From a virus: 36,099 bases of DNA. The position numbers and the translations under genes are program-made. Under the pieces are notes generated by a model. The model saw nothing but the letters and a program-made list of their open reading frames with translations. It was not told the DNA's origin and searched no databases. Positions 387 to 8,997 of the stretch are shown piece by piece (the first letter of the stretch is position 1; every line of letters starts with the position of its first letter). Location of the stretch: positions 1 to 36,099 of IMG/VR virus record IMGVR_UViG_3300035145_001599; one strand, given 5' to 3'.

Positions 387-998
387 TTAAATTTTAGCCA
401 TAGCCTCCATGATCAACATTTTACCACGGCGAATTCGATTCTTAACAGTTTGAAGATTGACATTGTGCTTCTCTGCAATATCTTCGTACTTCATACTGTT
501 GAGAAGGCGATCTTCGAGAATGTCTCGGTACATTGGCTTAAGACCTTTAATACAATTCAAAGCCAAAGCATATTGTTCCATCAACTGATTCTCTTCTTCA
601 AGATAGTCTTTCTCAGTACGTTGCTCGTAATCATTAAGCAACTCGTCGATGGTTTCGTTAACGCCATTAGAGGCTGAAACTTCTACGCCGAAATCTTTCA
701 TGCCATCAATGCTATACTTGCGATTACGTTCGCGAATCCAACCAAGAGATTCATTAAAGGCAATGCGGTAGAGCCAAGTGGTGATTTGATATTTAGGATC
801 ATATTGGTCGATCTTGGTCCACATTTTGATCAGTGTATTAGCCAAAATATCTTCAGCTGCTTCTGCATCTTTAACCACATTCATGATGTAGTTGCGAAGG
901 CCAGGTTGAACTCGCTTGTACAACAAGTTAAAGTCTTTTTCAGATCGAGATGCCAAGAAGTTTTCTGCGAGTTCGCGGTAGCTAGCAGTGTTTTGCAT
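387..998 (-). CDS. sigma-70 family (ECF-like) RNA polymerase sigma factor
   Basis: The 203-residue protein has the two-domain layout of an ECF-type sigma factor. Region 2 lies at about residues 20-95, including the TWLYRIAFNES core-binding/-10 recognition stretch. Region 4 lies at about 150-203, with KYEDIAEKHNV...TVKNRIRRGK forming the helix-turn-helix for -35-type contacts. A spacer of about 50 acidic residues joins them and no region 1 or 3 is visible. It would redirect host RNA polymerase to phage promoters, a job done in T4 by gp55, but the sequence resembles host ECF factors more than gp55. It is followed on the same strand by tRNA-Ile and preceded by a candidate promoter at 1031-1043. 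A likely target is the GATATATA element ahead of the structural genes; that link is inference. Confidence 0.88.
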   Translation of the reverse strand: MQNTASYRELAENFLASRSEKDFNLLYKRVQPGLRNYIMNVVKDAEAAEDILANTLIKMWTKIDQYDPKYQITTWLYRIAFNESLGWIRERNRKYSIDGMKDFGVEVSASNGVNETIDELLNDYEQRTEKDYLEEENQLMEQYALALNCIKGLKPMYRDILEDRLLNSMKYEDIAEKHNVNLQTVKNRIRRGKMLIMEAMAKI

Positions 999-1030: not shown

Positions 1031-1043
1031 GGTAAATATACCA
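1031..1043 (-). promoter_or_regulatory. candidate promoter for the sigma factor gene
   Basis: The minus strand reads TGGTATATTTACC, about 33 bases before the sigma factor start. TATATTTA is one base from the Bacteroidota -7 consensus TAnnTTTG, and TTTC stands 19 bases upstream where TTTG would be expected. The same 13-mer with two changes occurs at 333-345. The role as a host-sigma promoter is inferred. Confidence 0.3.
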
Positions 1044-1072
1044 CAAAAAAATTAAACGGGAAACTTTAAATG

Positions 1073-1588
1073 TTAAAAATCGTTAAAAGTTTCTAAAAGT
1101 CGTTGTAGTTCTTGAGGCTTATAACCCCAAAGATCGGTAGATGCATTGATAATTCGCTTCTTGGGGTCTGACTTATACTTTTTACCAGGATATCCTATAA
1201 CCGAATAATATCCATTAGACGACCCTGGCCATTCTTGCATCGGCCAATAAGATAAACTACACTCATAATCTTTAAGAGGAGTTATACGATTCATCATATA
1301 ACTATTTCCTGGCATAAGCTTTTTATTATTTAATAACATGACCGCAGCATCGTGCTCAGCTGGCAACAAATAAATCTTGCCCCTGAGGCGCTGTAATGCG
1401 TCTTGAGCTGTCTTGGGATCCCAAGCGAAGTTTCCTAAATGATAAACTATATCTTCGTCAGTGACCACTGAATTCCAATTGCCAATTAACTCATTAGTCA
1501 TATTGTCAACATCCTTAAATGGTCGCTTAAACTTAGAGATTGCGTTGGGCCTTCCCAACTGTAAGTTAGAAGTCACATATACTTTCAT
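1073..1588 (-). CDS. metallophosphoesterase-fold protein lacking the metal ligands (probable pseudoenzyme)
   Basis: The 171-residue protein follows the small phage/bacterial calcineurin-like phosphoesterase pattern along its whole length, including NRPF-like KRPF, IGNWNSVV, DEDIVYHLG, LRGKIYLLP and STDLWGYKP. The catalytic positions are replaced. The usual SDLH is SNLQ (N8, Q10), the usual GD is GN (N53), GNHD is AEHD (E78, with H79 kept), the usual CHYP is SYWP (Y114), and GHxH is GYPG (Y133, G135). With almost every metal ligand gone it is unlikely to be a phosphoesterase; a binding, decoy or inhibitory role is possible but unproven. The reading frame is intact, so it is not a decaying pseudogene. 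It is a single gene with a 30-nt gap after the exported protease gene and 74 nt before the sigma gene. CATATAAA lies about 10 bases before its start. Confidence 0.8.
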   Translation of the reverse strand: MKVYVTSNLQLGRPNAISKFKRPFKDVDNMTNELIGNWNSVVTDEDIVYHLGNFAWDPKTAQDALQRLRGKIYLLPAEHDAAVMLLNNKKLMPGNSYMMNRITPLKDYECSLSYWPMQEWPGSSNGYYSVIGYPGKKYKSDPKKRIINASTDLWGYKPQELQRLLETFNDF

Positions 1589-1618: not shown

Positions 1619-3571
1619 TTATTGTACGTCATAAATACAACGCACTGACATGCCATGACCCTTAGACTTACTTGTTTGCCAAAGATCGTTATATCTGGCA
1701 ATGCCATTTTTTGTATCTAAAATAGCTCTCGACCAAGCACTTTCTCTGCGATTTCTTTTTAGCGAGAAATGTGAGTCAGAAGTCCAATATGTTGCTATTA
1801 AATCTTGACCATAATAAACTCCGTCAATGTCTTTAATAACTCCAGCATAAACAGGATCAAACTCACTTGCAAATATTTGAGTATGCATATCTTGTGATTC
1901 TCCTCTATTTCCAACTGTATTTAATTCCGTCTTATTAAGGCCTAATATATCTTCAAGGTTTTTCCAATCTTGATCACTAGGAACTCTCCATCCAACTGGA
2001 CAAACTCCTTCGTTGACTGCATACCAATTATATAAAAAACCTAATGTATCTAAAGTACTTAAGGGATTATAATATGCACCTGTTTCATCTTCACTCCATT
2101 CAGAACCTTCTCCTAATTCATTAATATTTACACCAGATGTGTATGTTGTAGTTCTTAAGTTTTCAGTAAACCAACACGTTGATCCAAATAAAGCTAAATC
2201 ATATTGATAACCGTGATAATTTTCACTAACGCAATCTTCTTGATTATCACACACTCCATTATTATTTAAATCTTCTGCGCAATCGCCACCACAGACACCA
2301 ATGGCATCGAGCTGGTTGCCGTTGCAGTCACAATCGCCGGCCGGGATGTCGCTACATCCGCATACATAAATCTCTCCAGGGCCATTGCAAATACCGCAAG
2401 CGTCGAGTGCGCCAATACAGTCGTCGACATCGTCACAGATGCCATCGTCGTCGGCATCTGAGTTACAAGTTCCATTGCAAACACCTAAAGCATCATAATT
2501 ACCTACACAATTATCTACATCGTCGCAAATGCCATCGCTATCAACATCTGCTTGACAAGATCCTCCACAAACTCCTATTGCATCATTATAAAGGCATGAG
2601 CCGTCATCTACTGTTGCCGAAGAATTGTAATTACATGCGTTAGAATTTGTACATCCTTCATTAGATCCATATAAATTACTACCGTTTGCAAACATAGCCT
2701 GTCTATATAAATCTCCCCAAGCGTGCATCCTATCTATTTGACCGTCAGTAAACTTTAAGTTAGAACAACCATGATAAGACATTATATTTTCAGGATCTGC
2801 ACCATTTCCATTATTTACAAATCCTGGACATACTATACTACAACCCCCTAAAACACCGATTTGCGGAGGGGTATCACAAACTAGATCACCTTGAGTTTGA
2901 CAATTACTTTCTTGACTAGCTTCTAAACATGAAGGATATCCATAATAATAAGTATCATATGTTTGTCCCTGAGAAGTTTGTTTATGAAAGCTATGATATA
3001 ATCCTAAAAAATGACCCACTTCATGTGCATTAGTTTTACTAGTTGTACTTTTAAAATAAGAAGGGTCTACAAAATATCCAGGAACATAATTTGCACTTAA
3101 AAATGTAAATCCAGCAGCACCGCCTGACATTTCAATAACATAGACATTTAAATATTGAGAATTTAAATAGCCAAATGTATTCCAAAAATATCCAGCAGAA
3201 TCAGCAATAGTTAAATAAGATGCATTTACATAAAATTCAGTACCGTAATCGTTTAAATCTATATTTCTATATCCGTTAAAAGTTTGATTAGTTAATGGAT
3301 CTATGAATGTATTTCCATCTGGGTTACGATCAGCTAATACAAACGTTATTTCTGAATCCGTTTGGTCTGTTGTACCTATTCCAGATTGGAATTGAATATT
3401 TAAAAGATCTACAGCATCAACAACTTGAGAATAACTAACATTGGATCCATATCCTAATGTATTTGTATTATCGTGTAATACATTTACAACAAGCGGTATT
3501 ATTCTTTCTTGAGAAAAAATTGAGTTACACATTGTTAAACAGAACAATGTAAATATAATTAGGTTTTTCAT
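1619..3571 (-). CDS. exported pappalysin-like zinc metalloprotease with FISUMP domain
   Basis: The 650-residue protein begins with a Sec signal peptide (residues 1-20, cleavage likely before QE). A metzincin domain of the pappalysin (M43) type spans about 25-290: the zinc motif HEVGHFLGLYH is at 183-193 (H183, E184, H187, H193), and the Met-turn NIMSYHG has M264. Next comes a Cys-rich linker (about 307-447) with GCTNSNACNYN and three DxDxDGICDD-like, thrombospondin-type-3-like calcium-binding repeats. The C-terminus (about 454-650) is a Fibrobacter succinogenes major paralogous (FISUMP) domain with CWFTENLRT, LYNWYAV, CPVGWRVPSD and GHGMSVRC. I see no type IX secretion C-terminal domain. It is expected outside the cytoplasm, where it could cleave host surface proteins or act in adhesion. 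It is a shorter paralogue of the neighbouring 3634-7896 gene. Such exported hydrolases are normal for Bacteroidota hosts and odd in a phage. Confidence 0.85.
   Translation of the reverse strand: MKNLIIFTLFCLTMCNSIFSQERIIPLVVNVLHDNTNTLGYGSNVSYSQVVDAVDLLNIQFQSGIGTTDQTDSEITFVLADRNPDGNTFIDPLTNQTFNGYRNIDLNDYGTEFYVNASYLTIADSAGYFWNTFGYLNSQYLNVYVIEMSGGAAGFTFLSANYVPGYFVDPSYFKSTTSKTNAHEVGHFLGLYHSFHKQTSQGQTYDTYYYGYPSCLEASQESNCQTQGDLVCDTPPQIGVLGGCSIVCPGFVNNGNGADPENIMSYHGCSNLKFTDGQIDRMHAWGDLYRQAMFANGSNLYGSNEGCTNSNACNYNSSATVDDGSCLYNDAIGVCGGSCQADVDSDGICDDVDNCVGNYDALGVCNGTCNSDADDDGICDDVDDCIGALDACGICNGPGEIYVCGCSDIPAGDCDCNGNQLDAIGVCGGDCAEDLNNNGVCDNQEDCVSENYHGYQYDLALFGSTCWFTENLRTTTYTSGVNINELGEGSEWSEDETGAYYNPLSTLDTLGFLYNWYAVNEGVCPVGWRVPSDQDWKNLEDILGLNKTELNTVGNRGESQDMHTQIFASEFDPVYAGVIKDIDGVYYGQDLIATYWTSDSHFSLKRNRRESAWSRAILDTKNGIARYNDLWQTSKSKGHGMSVRCIYDVQ
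2270..2560 (-). repeat. Cys/Asp-rich calcium-binding-type repeats, locally GC-rich
   Basis: This stretch encodes about residues 337-434 of the exported protease and repeats an Asp-rich SDGICDD/CxGxC unit. Its base composition is visibly richer in GC (GTCGTCGACATCG-type runs) than the AT-rich sequence on either side. A matching GC-rich patch is at 4290-4440 in the paralogous gene. The repeats probably bind calcium and hold the protease and FISUMP domains apart. Confidence 0.6.
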
Positions 3572-3633: not shown

Positions 3634-6600
3634 TTAATCTTCTAAAATGCATCTAACCGAAAGACCGTGACCTTTTCCTCCGCTAGTTTGCCATAGATCG
3701 TGATATCTACCAATAGCAGATAAATCTTGATCTGCAAAAATAGCCCTAGACCATGCGCTTTCACTATACCTTGGTTTTGTACTGAAGAAAGCACTTTGTG
3801 TCCAATAATAACCTGCATTTCCAAGTTGTCTAAATTGACCATCTCCATCAACTCTTATGCCTCCAAAATCTCCTGACCAACCTGTTGTTCCATTTGGACC
3901 TATAGCATCTCCGGTTAAAGTAGAAATACCTCTATATCCTGTTGAATTTAGTTCAGATCTAGACATACCAGTAAAGTCTTCAAGATTTTTAAAGTCTTTA
4001 TCGGTTGGAACTTTCCAACCAACAGGACATAAATTACCAGTATTTATTGCATACCAATTATATAAATATCCATATTGGTTTGTATTACTATCATCATTAT
4101 CATATTTAGAATAGGCTCCAGAAGTTGCATCTGACCAAGCCTGATTATCTTGTATTTCAGATATTGATTGATTATTATTGTATATTCTAGTTCTCAAATT
4201 CTCAGTAAACCAACATTGATCTCCTATTTGTTCAACGCTGTATGTATGTCCATCAAAAGTTGGAGCTAAACAACTTAAAAGTTCAGCTTGTTGAGCAACG
4301 TCACAGATGCCATCACCGTTTACATCAGATGCACAGTCTCCTCCACAAATACCAATTGCATCTTCAACTTGACCAGCACAGTCGCATGCACCTTCGGGTA
4401 TGCCATTGCCTCCACAAACGCCACACTCGTCGCGCACTAGAATAGCTCCATCGTCAACGTTAGCACTTGGATCAAAATTACAAAGTAAAGTTGAGCTTAA
4501 AGAAGTAGATCCATCAACAACGTCTTGTTGAGGTAAAGAGTATGTAGTTCCACCTACTCTAACTTCAGGTGCTTCAGCTCCAGAAACACATCTAACTTGC
4601 CTATAAGAAGTGACCCAATTACCTTGAATTGTACTAGAAGTACAATAATCAGGTGCATTATTCAAACAAGTTGGAGTAAAATTATTATACTTAAGACCAT
4701 CGGAATAGTAATCAATAGTTCTTCCATTAGATATGTAAGTAATTTTTTCATATTCAGGAAAACTAAATCCAAAAGCACGTTCGCCCGATTGTAATTGAAT
4801 GGCAGGATACCACCAATTTCTTCTTCCATCAATGTCCTTCCACGCTCCTACTGCGCCCCAACCTTGTCGACCAGGTGCTACTCGAATCTGATATGGAGCA
4901 CTTCCATATCCGTCAGGATCACCGACCACAAGTTCCTGGTTATATGTACCATTAAATCCAAAGTCATTATCACCATAATATACGTTATAACTCCATCCCC
5001 AACCTAGTTCTGAAGATTCAGATTTAGACAAAGTTAAAGCCTTTTTTGCAGATGGTCCAGCCGCATCGGCTAATAATTCAAAATCAGAAAGACTAGCTAC
5101 CCTAAACCCTTCTGGGCAAATATTTTTTTGATTAGGATCATTAGGATTATCATATGCTAAATAGTTATAGAAAAATCCTCCAAATTTATCTCTACTGTTA
5201 GGTTCATCCCATTCTTCTTGACTTACAAATGCGTTATATGCAGATGAAATATTATTAGCCAATCTTGGATCTATATATGCAGCGAAAAGGCTATCAGTAT
5301 CTCTAAAAACTTCAGCATAGGTCGGCATATCAGTTGAGTCAATTCTCATGATAGGTGTTCCATCGCTATATACCGAGGTTTTAAGATTTTCTGCAAACCA
5401 ACATTGATTACCAATAGATACTACATCATGATCTATTCCGTCAACTGTTATAAAGGTTATTGGATTTCCATTTACATCTACGCAATTATTAGCAGCTGAA
5501 ACTGTATCAATAGCTGCATTAGGATAACCTAATGTATTTATTTTTGCCCAATATCTTTCTCCTTCTTGAAGACCATCAAACGTGGTTTTAGTAATAGCCT
5601 TTCTATATATGTGTTCATCATGAACGTAGCTTAAATATATTGTTGTATCTTTAACTATATTATTAAAATTTTCGTCAGAAGCTAAAAGTATATTTACATC
5701 TCCGGCTTCTAATGTTCCTTGATCTATTGCTTCTATGGTGGTAGTTATAGTACCAGGTTCTGAAACTTCAAAATCGAAATTTACATTAGCTAATTCAAAA
5801 GGATCATTTAAACTAGCATTATCACAAAATCCGTTATTTCCACCGGTATAGCATTGCTCATTAGATACGAACCCTTCAGGTACATTAAATCTATACATAA
5901 GTGGATATGGTAAAGTATCTGGTTGAGTTGTAAGATTCACATCACTTGAAGCAGAAGTAATTTTTGAGCCCATTCCATTGAATCCTACAAAAGTAACTCC
6001 ATTTTGAGGATTAGCAAGATGATCTAACCATGTTTCATCCATAGAATAAAGAACTTCTGTACCATTTAAAAGAACACTAAAGTTACATCCGTCCAAACAA
6101 GATTCGTAAATTAAGTGAGAAACTTGACCGGCGCCAGGACCATCTGTTAGCGCGTATCCATCAAAGAATCTAAGAACATATTCGCCAGGCTCTAAATACC
6201 AAGTATTAATAACTTCCCATGAATCATTTGAACCTGTTGCGTTATACCGTGTAATAAATGGATATACATTTCCATAAACATCATCTCCATATCCATCAAA
6301 TGCATAAGTTTCAGCTGCTTTCTTTTTATTTGTAAGAAATGAATTAGACCACCATTTTCTACCGTCCATAACTATTTCATCGTTATTTACGTCATAGATA
6401 TCAAATTGTTTAAACATCCAAAATGCACGCTTATAATTAGATTGTATAGATATAGAGCCATCAGCCTGTCTATCTAATTGATACGTCTTTGTGTTATCTC
6501 CTAGATATGCATCATTTGGAGATTGAGAAACGGCCGCGGTAATAGACCACGTCCCCTCATCTTTTATTTGTACTTCAGGAAATGAAACATTAAATATCTG

Positions 6601-7896
6601 TGACGCTTCAATTGCAGCTAAGTCATTTTGGTCATAAGAATATTGAAACGTTTCTACTCCATTACTTACTTGTAAATCAATAGAATATTGAGATTCTGTA
6701 AAATCTCCACTATTTTCTAATATAACAATAGGCTTAAATTTATTAATACCCGTTCTATCTATAGAGATATCTATTCCAAGATTATTTACAGCAACTGCTG
6801 TAGTAATCCAAGATTGATTAGCCAATTCAGTTCTTACGTTTTGTAAAGTTGCTCTCATTCTACAAACTTGATCTTGAGTAAAATGACGCTTACACTGAGG
6901 AGAAGTATCATCCATATAGTTATGAACATCTGGATATTCATCCAATTCGGTTTCGTAAAAATTTTGGGTTTGACCTCCCCCAACGACTGGAGCTCTAGAT
7001 GAACAAAGACTACTACAGTTTCTAGGGGTAGGAGGGGTGTCACAACATCTATCACCTTCTGTATTACAATCTACTTCATTATTAGCATCTTCAGGAGTAG
7101 ATGTATCATACCACGTTTGATAAAGCCCTAAATATGTGCCGACTGCTTCAGTAAAGAATGCATTTAAACCTGTTGCAAAAGAAGAAGGCAAATTTCCATA
7201 GCCAAATCTATTAGCTTGAATCACAATTCCGTCTAAATCAGATAAATTGACAGATGGAAATGTTCCGAACGTCATTGTTCCACATCCTCCATTATTATTA
7301 TCAATTTCAGGAACTACCCAAACATTTAAGTAATTTTCTCTAGGCCACCCAGTCGCTTGTTTTATAGCTAATTCATTGGGTAATAATAAATCAGAAGATT
7401 CTCTGACAAGACCATGTTCTACAAAATTAGCATCAGAAGAAAAATCATGCCTAATAATACCAGTTGTAGGATTTCCAGATGGATCTCTATGTGCTAAAAC
7501 AAATCTTATACCCGCATCTAAAGATGTGGCCTCCCTATCTTCTCCTTCTAACCAATAGGGAATCCAAGTATTATCAAATCTATCATTTAAGTTTTGTAAA
7601 GAAGTTAATACATGCTCTCTTGCTACATTAGCTGTTAAAGAAGGCTGAAGAGCATAATTTTCTTTCCATTGCACTTCTGCATAATTGACAGTTAAATCAA
7701 TAGGTTCTCCTTTGTGAATAATATGAAATACTACGGGTATTTCATAGATATCAGAGCCGTCTCCACAGTTCTCAAAATTTTGAGATATTAGATTTTCAGC
7801 AGCTTGTACACCAACATCATATGTCAATCTATCTACCTGTGAATAACCAGATATCGCTAAAATCATTATTAAAAATAAGTTTACTATTCTTTTCAT
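3634..7896 (-). CDS. large exported pappalysin-like protein with inactivated zinc site and two FISUMP domains
   Basis: The 1420-residue protein starts with a signal peptide (residues 1-19, MKRIVNLFLIMILAISGYS). Its N-terminal 360 residues align with the neighbouring protease: IPVVFHIIH, LNVWVVPE, CDTPP and a Met-turn-like NYMDD (M328). The zinc motif position reads EAVGTYLGLYQ (residues 250-260), so all three histidines and the catalytic glutamate are replaced (H to E, E to A, H to T, H to Q). A long beta-rich region (about 370-790) follows, then a FISUMP domain (about 795-1110; CWFAENLKT), a short Cys-rich DVNGDGICD segment (about 1155-1205), and a second FISUMP domain (about 1215-1420; CWFTENLRT, GHGLSVRC). 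It probably works as a secreted binding or structural protein, not a protease. It arose with 1619-3571 by duplication of the same architecture. A terminator follows it. Involvement in virions, receptor binding or superinfection control is open. Confidence 0.8.
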   Translation of the reverse strand: MKRIVNLFLIMILAISGYSQVDRLTYDVGVQAAENLISQNFENCGDGSDIYEIPVVFHIIHKGEPIDLTVNYAEVQWKENYALQPSLTANVAREHVLTSLQNLNDRFDNTWIPYWLEGEDREATSLDAGIRFVLAHRDPSGNPTTGIIRHDFSSDANFVEHGLVRESSDLLLPNELAIKQATGWPRENYLNVWVVPEIDNNNGGCGTMTFGTFPSVNLSDLDGIVIQANRFGYGNLPSSFATGLNAFFTEAVGTYLGLYQTWYDTSTPEDANNEVDCNTEGDRCCDTPPTPRNCSSLCSSRAPVVGGGQTQNFYETELDEYPDVHNYMDDTSPQCKRHFTQDQVCRMRATLQNVRTELANQSWITTAVAVNNLGIDISIDRTGINKFKPIVILENSGDFTESQYSIDLQVSNGVETFQYSYDQNDLAAIEASQIFNVSFPEVQIKDEGTWSITAAVSQSPNDAYLGDNTKTYQLDRQADGSISIQSNYKRAFWMFKQFDIYDVNNDEIVMDGRKWWSNSFLTNKKKAAETYAFDGYGDDVYGNVYPFITRYNATGSNDSWEVINTWYLEPGEYVLRFFDGYALTDGPGAGQVSHLIYESCLDGCNFSVLLNGTEVLYSMDETWLDHLANPQNGVTFVGFNGMGSKITSASSDVNLTTQPDTLPYPLMYRFNVPEGFVSNEQCYTGGNNGFCDNASLNDPFELANVNFDFEVSEPGTITTTIEAIDQGTLEAGDVNILLASDENFNNIVKDTTIYLSYVHDEHIYRKAITKTTFDGLQEGERYWAKINTLGYPNAAIDTVSAANNCVDVNGNPITFITVDGIDHDVVSIGNQCWFAENLKTSVYSDGTPIMRIDSTDMPTYAEVFRDTDSLFAAYIDPRLANNISSAYNAFVSQEEWDEPNSRDKFGGFFYNYLAYDNPNDPNQKNICPEGFRVASLSDFELLADAAGPSAKKALTLSKSESSELGWGWSYNVYYGDNDFGFNGTYNQELVVGDPDGYGSAPYQIRVAPGRQGWGAVGAWKDIDGRRNWWYPAIQLQSGERAFGFSFPEYEKITYISNGRTIDYYSDGLKYNNFTPTCLNNAPDYCTSSTIQGNWVTSYRQVRCVSGAEAPEVRVGGTTYSLPQQDVVDGSTSLSSTLLCNFDPSANVDDGAILVRDECGVCGGNGIPEGACDCAGQVEDAIGICGGDCASDVNGDGICDVAQQAELLSCLAPTFDGHTYSVEQIGDQCWFTENLRTRIYNNNQSISEIQDNQAWSDATSGAYSKYDNDDSNTNQYGYLYNWYAINTGNLCPVGWKVPTDKDFKNLEDFTGMSRSELNSTGYRGISTLTGDAIGPNGTTGWSGDFGGIRVDGDGQFRQLGNAGYYWTQSAFFSTKPRYSESAWSRAIFADQDLSAIGRYHDLWQTSGGKGHGLSVRCILED

Positions 7897-7908: not shown

Positions 7909-8451
7909 TTATTTAATTACAAATTTAATATTGAAATCTTTCCAAAGAAGATCTATGAATTCTGACTCATTTGTACTACCCACAGAATTAGCAATACGCT
8001 TATCGTCAGTAGTATCTATAAACAAATAAATAACGAAATCAAAATGAGTAGAGTAAATCATAGATTGGCCAATGCCAGATCTAAGAGCTGATCCGCTTTC
8101 TCCCTTTTTAAATTCGATTCCAATCTTTAAACCCTCGGTTTCTAAAACCATATCGGGCCTATTTTGTGTTCCCATAAAAAGAACGTGATTTACCGTAGTA
8201 TTCACGTTCCCCTCCCATTTTAGATTTTTCTTAACAACTTCTTTAGCTCTATCTTTAGAAATACCTTTTTCTTCGACCATTCTCTCGGCTAAAGCATCAA
8301 CAAGATGAGGATAAATGAATTGCTTAATGCTATCCTCATTCTTATTTCGATAGTTTATAGTATGAAAAATATCATTGTGGGTCATAGCCTCGCTAACCAT
8401 GTCCAACAATGATATTCTTTTCTTACTTTTACTTGCTTGTCTCATCTGCAA
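7909..8451 (-). CDS. PD-(D/E)XK-superfamily nuclease-like protein
   Basis: The 180-residue protein carries the order of residues expected for a restriction-endonuclease-like fold. An acidic residue in an N-terminal helix (E39 region) is followed by RPD with D100, then IEFKKG with E113 and K115 on the next strand, then a helix with GIGQSMIY (Q129). A hydrophobic strand, FVIYLFIDT, follows. The target is unknown; DNA processing, host DNA degradation or repair are possible. Its start lies inside the end of the upstream coiled-coil gene (23-nt overlap), indicating translational coupling. A second in-frame ATG two codons later is an equally good start. No DNA-recognition domain is visible. Confidence 0.65.
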   Translation of the reverse strand: MQMRQASKSKKRISLLDMVSEAMTHNDIFHTINYRNKNEDSIKQFIYPHLVDALAERMVEEKGISKDRAKEVVKKNLKWEGNVNTTVNHVLFMGTQNRPDMVLETEGLKIGIEFKKGESGSALRSGIGQSMIYSTHFDFVIYLFIDTTDDKRIANSVGSTNESEFIDLLWKDFNIKFVIK

Positions 8452-8996: not shown

Positions 8997-8997
8997 C

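Follow-up and report, generated by a model that had tools for sequence, protein, structure and literature searches.

A degraded metallophosphoesterase encoded beside an ECF-type sigma factor in a group of T4-like phages

An intact fold without its metal site

The stretch of viral DNA analysed here (the window, 36,099 nucleotides) is a 36 kb piece of a T4-like phage genome, with genes for clamp loader, capsid, portal, sheath and terminase, and it raises the question of what use a phage has for an enzyme fold from which nearly all the catalytic metal ligands have gone. The open reading frame concerned was correctly placed in the first-pass annotation at 1073–1588; it lies on the minus strand, with its ATG at 1588 and its stop codon ending at 1073, and specifies a protein of 171 amino acids. 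This protein had been described as having the fold of a calcineurin-like metallophosphoesterase (MPE) from end to end, a description that is borne out both by profile comparison and by structure prediction. It matches the phrog_547 'phosphoesterase' profile over its full length (residues 1–169, E=3e-19), and its AlphaFold model has a pLDDT of 97.2. The best solved match to this model is AQ1665 from Aquifex (1xm7; VIA Z 16.9, 2.7 Å, 161 residues), followed by LpxH, YfcE, the archaeal phosphodiesterase 1s3l, SbcD/Mre11, polymerase B subunits and Vps29. A Pfam scan of the protein gave no model at E ≤ 1, and hence no known anti-sigma domain.

Alignment to canonical phage MPEs confirmed the placement of every column of the ligand set (D-x-H, GD, GNH, H and GHxH). 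Proteins that keep 7–8 of these eight ligands are referred to below as canonical and those that keep 0–4 as degraded; the window protein has one of the eight and, by its ligand set, would not qualify as an active enzyme. H79 is kept, and the replacements are D8 to N, H10 to Q, D53 to N, N78 to E, H114 to Y, H133 to Y and H135 to G. In motif I (N8-L9-Q10, canonically D-x-H; 1559–1567, on the minus strand like all the motifs that follow), N8 and Q10 are both invariant in the window's subclade, and R13 (1550–1552), which stands in place of a canonical His, is Arg in nearly all degraded members. The segment G52-N53-F-A-W-D-P58 (1415–1435) has Asn for the Asp of the canonical GD, followed by an AWDP sequence gained in the degraded clade. 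E78-H79 (1352–1357) correspond to the N-H of GNHD, and position 78 is mostly Glu or Asp in the subclade. Y114 (1247–1249), canonically His, is invariant as Tyr in the subclade, and Y133-P134-G135 (1184–1192) occupies the H-x-H of GHxH. The earlier observation that H79 is the sole conserved ligand holds for the window protein and not for the family, since the residue is His in 58% of the window's subclade and Tyr, Asn, Phe, Thr or others outside it.

An alignment of phage homologues, proposed at the outset as a check on whether the substitutions recur, showed that they do. Among 73 sequences of the window's type (NQ; about 40 effective), N8, Q10, N53 and Y114 are invariant, as are G12, R13, P58 and P116, and positions 79, 133 and 135 drift. 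Conservation of R13 and of the A-W-D-P that follows N53 extends over the degraded subclades, with His for W56 in a quarter of NQ sequences, and is not seen in canonical MPEs. Averaged over the eight former ligand sites, the entropy is not significantly low (P=0.065); four of the sites are invariant and three drift. In its new form, half of the old site is under strict constraint and the other half can vary, a pattern more in keeping with re-use of this face than with decay. To judge from the order of motifs in the fold, R13, N53–P58 and Y114 would surround the former active site.

Because the ligands are degraded, metal-dependent catalysis is very unlikely, and the protein is very probably a pseudoenzyme. 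It might still be an enzyme if its metal site were rearranged or took a single metal (E78, D80 and variable neighbours could contribute), or if its reaction needed no metal, and such a proposal would suit the frequent Glu or Asp at position 78 in the subclade and the near-invariance of D80. However, the window's subclade has lost the GHxH His pair, the D-x-H pair and the bridging Asp, and D80 is just as well conserved in canonical enzymes without being among the ligands counted there; continued catalysis of either kind is considered highly improbable.

Selection and descent of the degraded family

The loss of catalytic residues, and nothing else, might suggest a decaying pseudogene or a sequencing artefact. 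Against this, the frame is open in relatives, and the closest pairs give dN/dS values of 0.03–0.06 (0.03 against L001, with dS 0.25; 0.057 against L002, with dS 0.71), those for distant pairs having been discarded because synonymous sites were saturated. The newly acquired residues are invariant, and canonical MPEs, of the gp47/SbcD type and others, remain intact elsewhere in related genomes. The present data already refute the pseudogene or artefact reading: the protein is a conserved pseudoenzyme and not a product of decay. It has the MPE fold, has lost the ligands and is retained under selection, as befits a non-catalytic scaffold. Of the first-pass proposal that it was selected for a non-catalytic job, the selection stands (essentially a single loss, long retention, strong purifying selection, invariant residues and a new motif); the jobs put forward, which were to bind a nucleotide or a protein partner of the active host enzyme or to sequester a cyclic-nucleotide signal, gained no specific support. 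A second phrog_547 match in four related contigs (L192–L195) was considered as an active close paralogue and rejected, since it is gp47/SbcD-like, with intact canonical motifs, and not close.

Scans of viral contigs and phage records yielded, after merging, 144 distinct homologues, of which 106 keep 0–4 of the eight ligands, 38 keep 7–8 and none keeps 5 or 6, a gap in which intermediate forms may be under-sampled because degraded and canonical patterns served as seeds for the scans. The near-total ligand replacement noticed in the window gene is thus real but not peculiar to it, being common to some 106 distinct homologues. In a rapidly built tree that has several long branches and leaves out nine active-site columns, 79 degraded rows form one group (SH-aLRT 91, not starred), and the window falls within a 48-member NQ subclade (support 100). 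It appears that the metal site was lost essentially once, in the ancestor of the degraded clade; one further independent loss is possible because L101, which is divergent, of GN type and not linked to a sigma, is placed among the canonical rows.

The wider degraded clade is marked by R13, N53 and the new AWDP motif, and its subclades have reached different states. Besides NQ, to which the window belongs, there are DW, which keeps D8 and H114, DF, which keeps D8 and often H114, and DM (LR756500). No degraded protein tabulated retains H10 or the last His of GHxH, and L171 alone among them keeps the GD Asp. A further degraded state was seen in the MPE upstream of the sigma at 8001 (L311/L312), where GG replaces GD. 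The contig of a huge phage (L188; 413,021 bases) carries several MPE-like proteins, one of them a degraded protein of the DWNANT type, and no sigma of the linked kind.

Among the matches listed from 50,697 annotated phage records, the sole clear member of the degraded family is the uncultured LR756500, and no isolate phage with a degraded MPE was found among the matches inspected, which included part of the weak ones. A cellular origin was considered and rejected, as a scan of genome contigs gave just two weak, partial matches in Bacilli. The carriers are a large group of aquatic T4-like phages that probably infect Bacteroidota, and a Bacteroidota host is likely for the window phage, judging from its relatives and from the Fib_succ_major (FISUMP) domains encoded beside the MPE gene.

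Linkage to a second sigma factor

The next gene downstream of the MPE gene in the window (387–998, minus strand) encodes an ECF-type sigma factor with sigma-70 regions 2 and 4, both Pfam models (PF04542 and PF08281) scoring above cut-off; fold prediction for this protein without an alignment gave a pLDDT of 45, too low for use. Among representatives, a homologue of this sigma lies within 3 kb of 72 of the 80 degraded MPEs and of none of the 38 canonical ones, and in 64 of the 80 it lies downstream on the same strand within 600 nt, although the phages are related and these counts are therefore not independent events. Some of the exceptions to the 3-kb link are at a contig end, and in others the sigma is farther away (5.5 kb in L035-type contigs, about 3 kb in L096 and L098). 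When the search was made from the sigma, 92 of 93 distinct sigmas proved to have an MPE upstream of them on the same strand, and in 85 of these cases it lies within 760 nt; the sole exception, L308 (sigma at about 8001), has no MPE on its contig of 26,953 bases. The major capsid protein, selected with neither MPE nor sigma in view, served for an independent search. Both genes were present in 10 of the 18 contigs tested and neither in eight; the pair lies to one side of the capsid gene at a distance of 22–30 kb, and each of the eight negative contigs stops short of this distance. The near-invariable presence of the MPE beside a phage sigma suggests a role among the core functions of the phage, probably one connected with transcription. 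The link between this MPE family and an ECF-type sigma is new here; no papers on phage MPE pseudoenzymes or on the MPE-sigma pair were found in the open-access literature searched.

Other neighbours vary among subclades while the sigma stays, and include guanylate kinase, PhoH, ATP-grasp and FISUMP proteins and a PD-(D/E)XK nuclease. Just upstream of the MPE gene in the window, on the minus strand, are genes for two large proteins with M43 peptidase and FISUMP domains (1619–3571 and 3634–7896). These genes hold the upstream slot in the window and its nearest relatives (L022–L024 and partly L034), and in sister phages the slot is occupied by other genes. In the DW subclade the MPE and sigma reading frames mostly adjoin or overlap slightly, and in some lineages genes intervene between the two, up to 5.5 kb. 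The sigma also seems to have its own promoter in many genomes: the MPE-sigma spacer of the window contains the promoter-like stretch TTTTGTGGTATATTTACC (1031–1048, minus strand), a putative promoter, and TATATTT/TATATTAG boxes recur upstream of most homologous sigma genes (spacers L196–L274). These boxes resemble the Bacteroidota -7 element, TAnnTTTG. No MPE lies near the more distant relatives of the sigma in Lak and crAss-like phages. The promoter-like boxes of the sigma, the intervening genes and the Lak and crAss-like sigmas indicate that the pairing is specific to this lineage, where its support is purely genetic.

A separate gp55-like sigma is encoded in 16 of 16 large contigs, so the MPE-linked sigma is a second sigma. 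The linked protein had first been favoured as the late sigma (the gp55 equivalent) on account of a TATA-type motif before the structural genes, an assignment that was rejected because of the separate gp55. The motif in question, RRATATATA[ACG], resembles T4 late promoters, and the pattern, chosen after looking at the window, has nine matches there, all on the coding strand (minus; at 8997, 14844, 19922, 22459, 24931, 30325, 33919, 34320 and 35945) and none on the other. Eight of the nine lie within 70 nt upstream of gene starts, and the motif is probably read by the gp55-like sigma.

Possible partners and precedents

These results suggest that a dead enzyme has been put to new use, in which it may be a partner of the sigma or regulate it. 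In the scheme we put forward, the metal site was lost essentially once, in the ancestor of the aquatic T4-like phage group, and the protein was kept as a core gene. The former active-site face (R13, N53-F-A-W-D-P58 and Y114) would contact a partner, most probably the adjacent ECF-type sigma, and the protein would modulate a second phage transcription programme alongside that of gp55, whether as an anti-sigma or as a coactivator, since the data would fit either. The prospects of the scheme as a whole fall a little short of even. Taken separately, a functional association of the protein with the sigma is evenly poised between likely and unlikely, and direct physical control of the sigma is a more tentative suggestion. 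It is proposed with similar reserve that the dead active-site face binds the ECF-type sigma and controls the second programme, which would represent a class of regulator undescribed in the literature searched.

The scaffold may instead serve a partner other than the sigma, such as host RNA polymerase, another phage protein or a nucleic acid, its linkage reflecting conserved gene order; the MPE-sigma linkage may be inherited core synteny. The evidence for a pseudoenzyme applies equally here, and the intervening genes of some lineages, the promoter-like box of the sigma itself and the ancestral appearance of the MPE-sigma-c6-c7 block are all in keeping with such a partner. On the other hand, the genes on either side are exchanged and the pair remains in nearly every genome, and canonical MPEs show no such linkage; we regard a different partner as possible, if on the doubtful side. 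The four former ligand positions that are strictly conserved as polar residues (N8, Q10, N53 and Y114) would also fit a re-used pocket that acts as a sponge or sensor, binding a nucleotide or cyclic-nucleotide signal and leaving it uncleaved. Yet the other half of the site drifts, and the gene is near-universal in its clade, a core status that argues against an accessory anti-defence role, for which a patchy distribution would be expected. Such a binding function is judged unlikely.

In lying beside an ECF-type sigma gene, the small protein that we prefer to see as a partner of the sigma resembles the anti-sigmas of ECF sigma/anti-sigma operons. It differs from the anti-sigmas of these operons in that their genes are usually downstream of the sigma and their folds are other ones. 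The closest known proteins are the PHROG 547 phosphoesterases of phages such as Listeria WIL-1, Pseudomonas PAK_P2, Vibrio F88 and Leptolyngbya Lbo-JY46, which have the same fold and length and collinear motifs. These canonical members differ in keeping 7–8 of the eight ligands and in their location, none of the 38 being near a sigma of this kind; the genes examined lie elsewhere, some of them near RNA ligase genes.

Non-catalytic MPE scaffolds are already known from eukaryotes. In the retromer subunit Vps29 the fold serves as a scaffold for protein interaction (Collins 2005, as cited in PMC7539009), and the window protein resembles it in fold (VIA Z 8.7), although Vps29 belongs to eukaryotic trafficking, is structurally distant and showed no sequence relation. 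In Dpb2 an inactivated calcineurin-like phosphoesterase domain is kept as a structural subunit (PMC7308368). The B subunits of eukaryotic DNA polymerases delta, epsilon and zeta share with the window protein such an inactivated domain (Z about 9), but they are larger, multidomain proteins of polymerase holoenzymes, neither phage-encoded nor linked to a sigma. Here the change is seen in a large and conserved family of viral proteins for which active relatives, intermediate states and an obvious genetic neighbour are all available, so that the re-use of a dead enzyme is now open to direct test. If the link to the sigma is physical, it would reveal control of a second sigma in a big group of uncultured aquatic phages. 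The label 'phosphoesterase' on such proteins is probably misleading as to function.

The late-transcription coactivator gp33 of T4 likewise acts together with a sigma factor of its phage (PMC2988020, PMC7892883), which offers an analogy and nothing closer: gp33 has another fold, its LDFL tail is absent from the degraded MPEs, and a separate gp55 homologue is present in these phages. The window protein matches phrog_547 and not phrog_254, and so falls outside the gp33 family. No match to gp33 was found in 16 large contigs, which is weak evidence since that family is short and divergent. Clamp binding by the C-terminus in the manner of gp33 was considered and not favoured, the tails resembling those of T4 gp33, gp43 and gp55 and of the phages' own polymerases just in hydrophobic and acidic character, and even this in no more than part of one subclade. 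An IFxDF-like C-terminal tail occurs in part of one subclade only and is unlike both the LDFL of T4 and the polymerase tail YASALF. The family B DNA polymerase of these phages is seemingly split into two open reading frames (L285–L291), and most of the second frames end in YASALF or similar, perhaps a clamp-binding tail.
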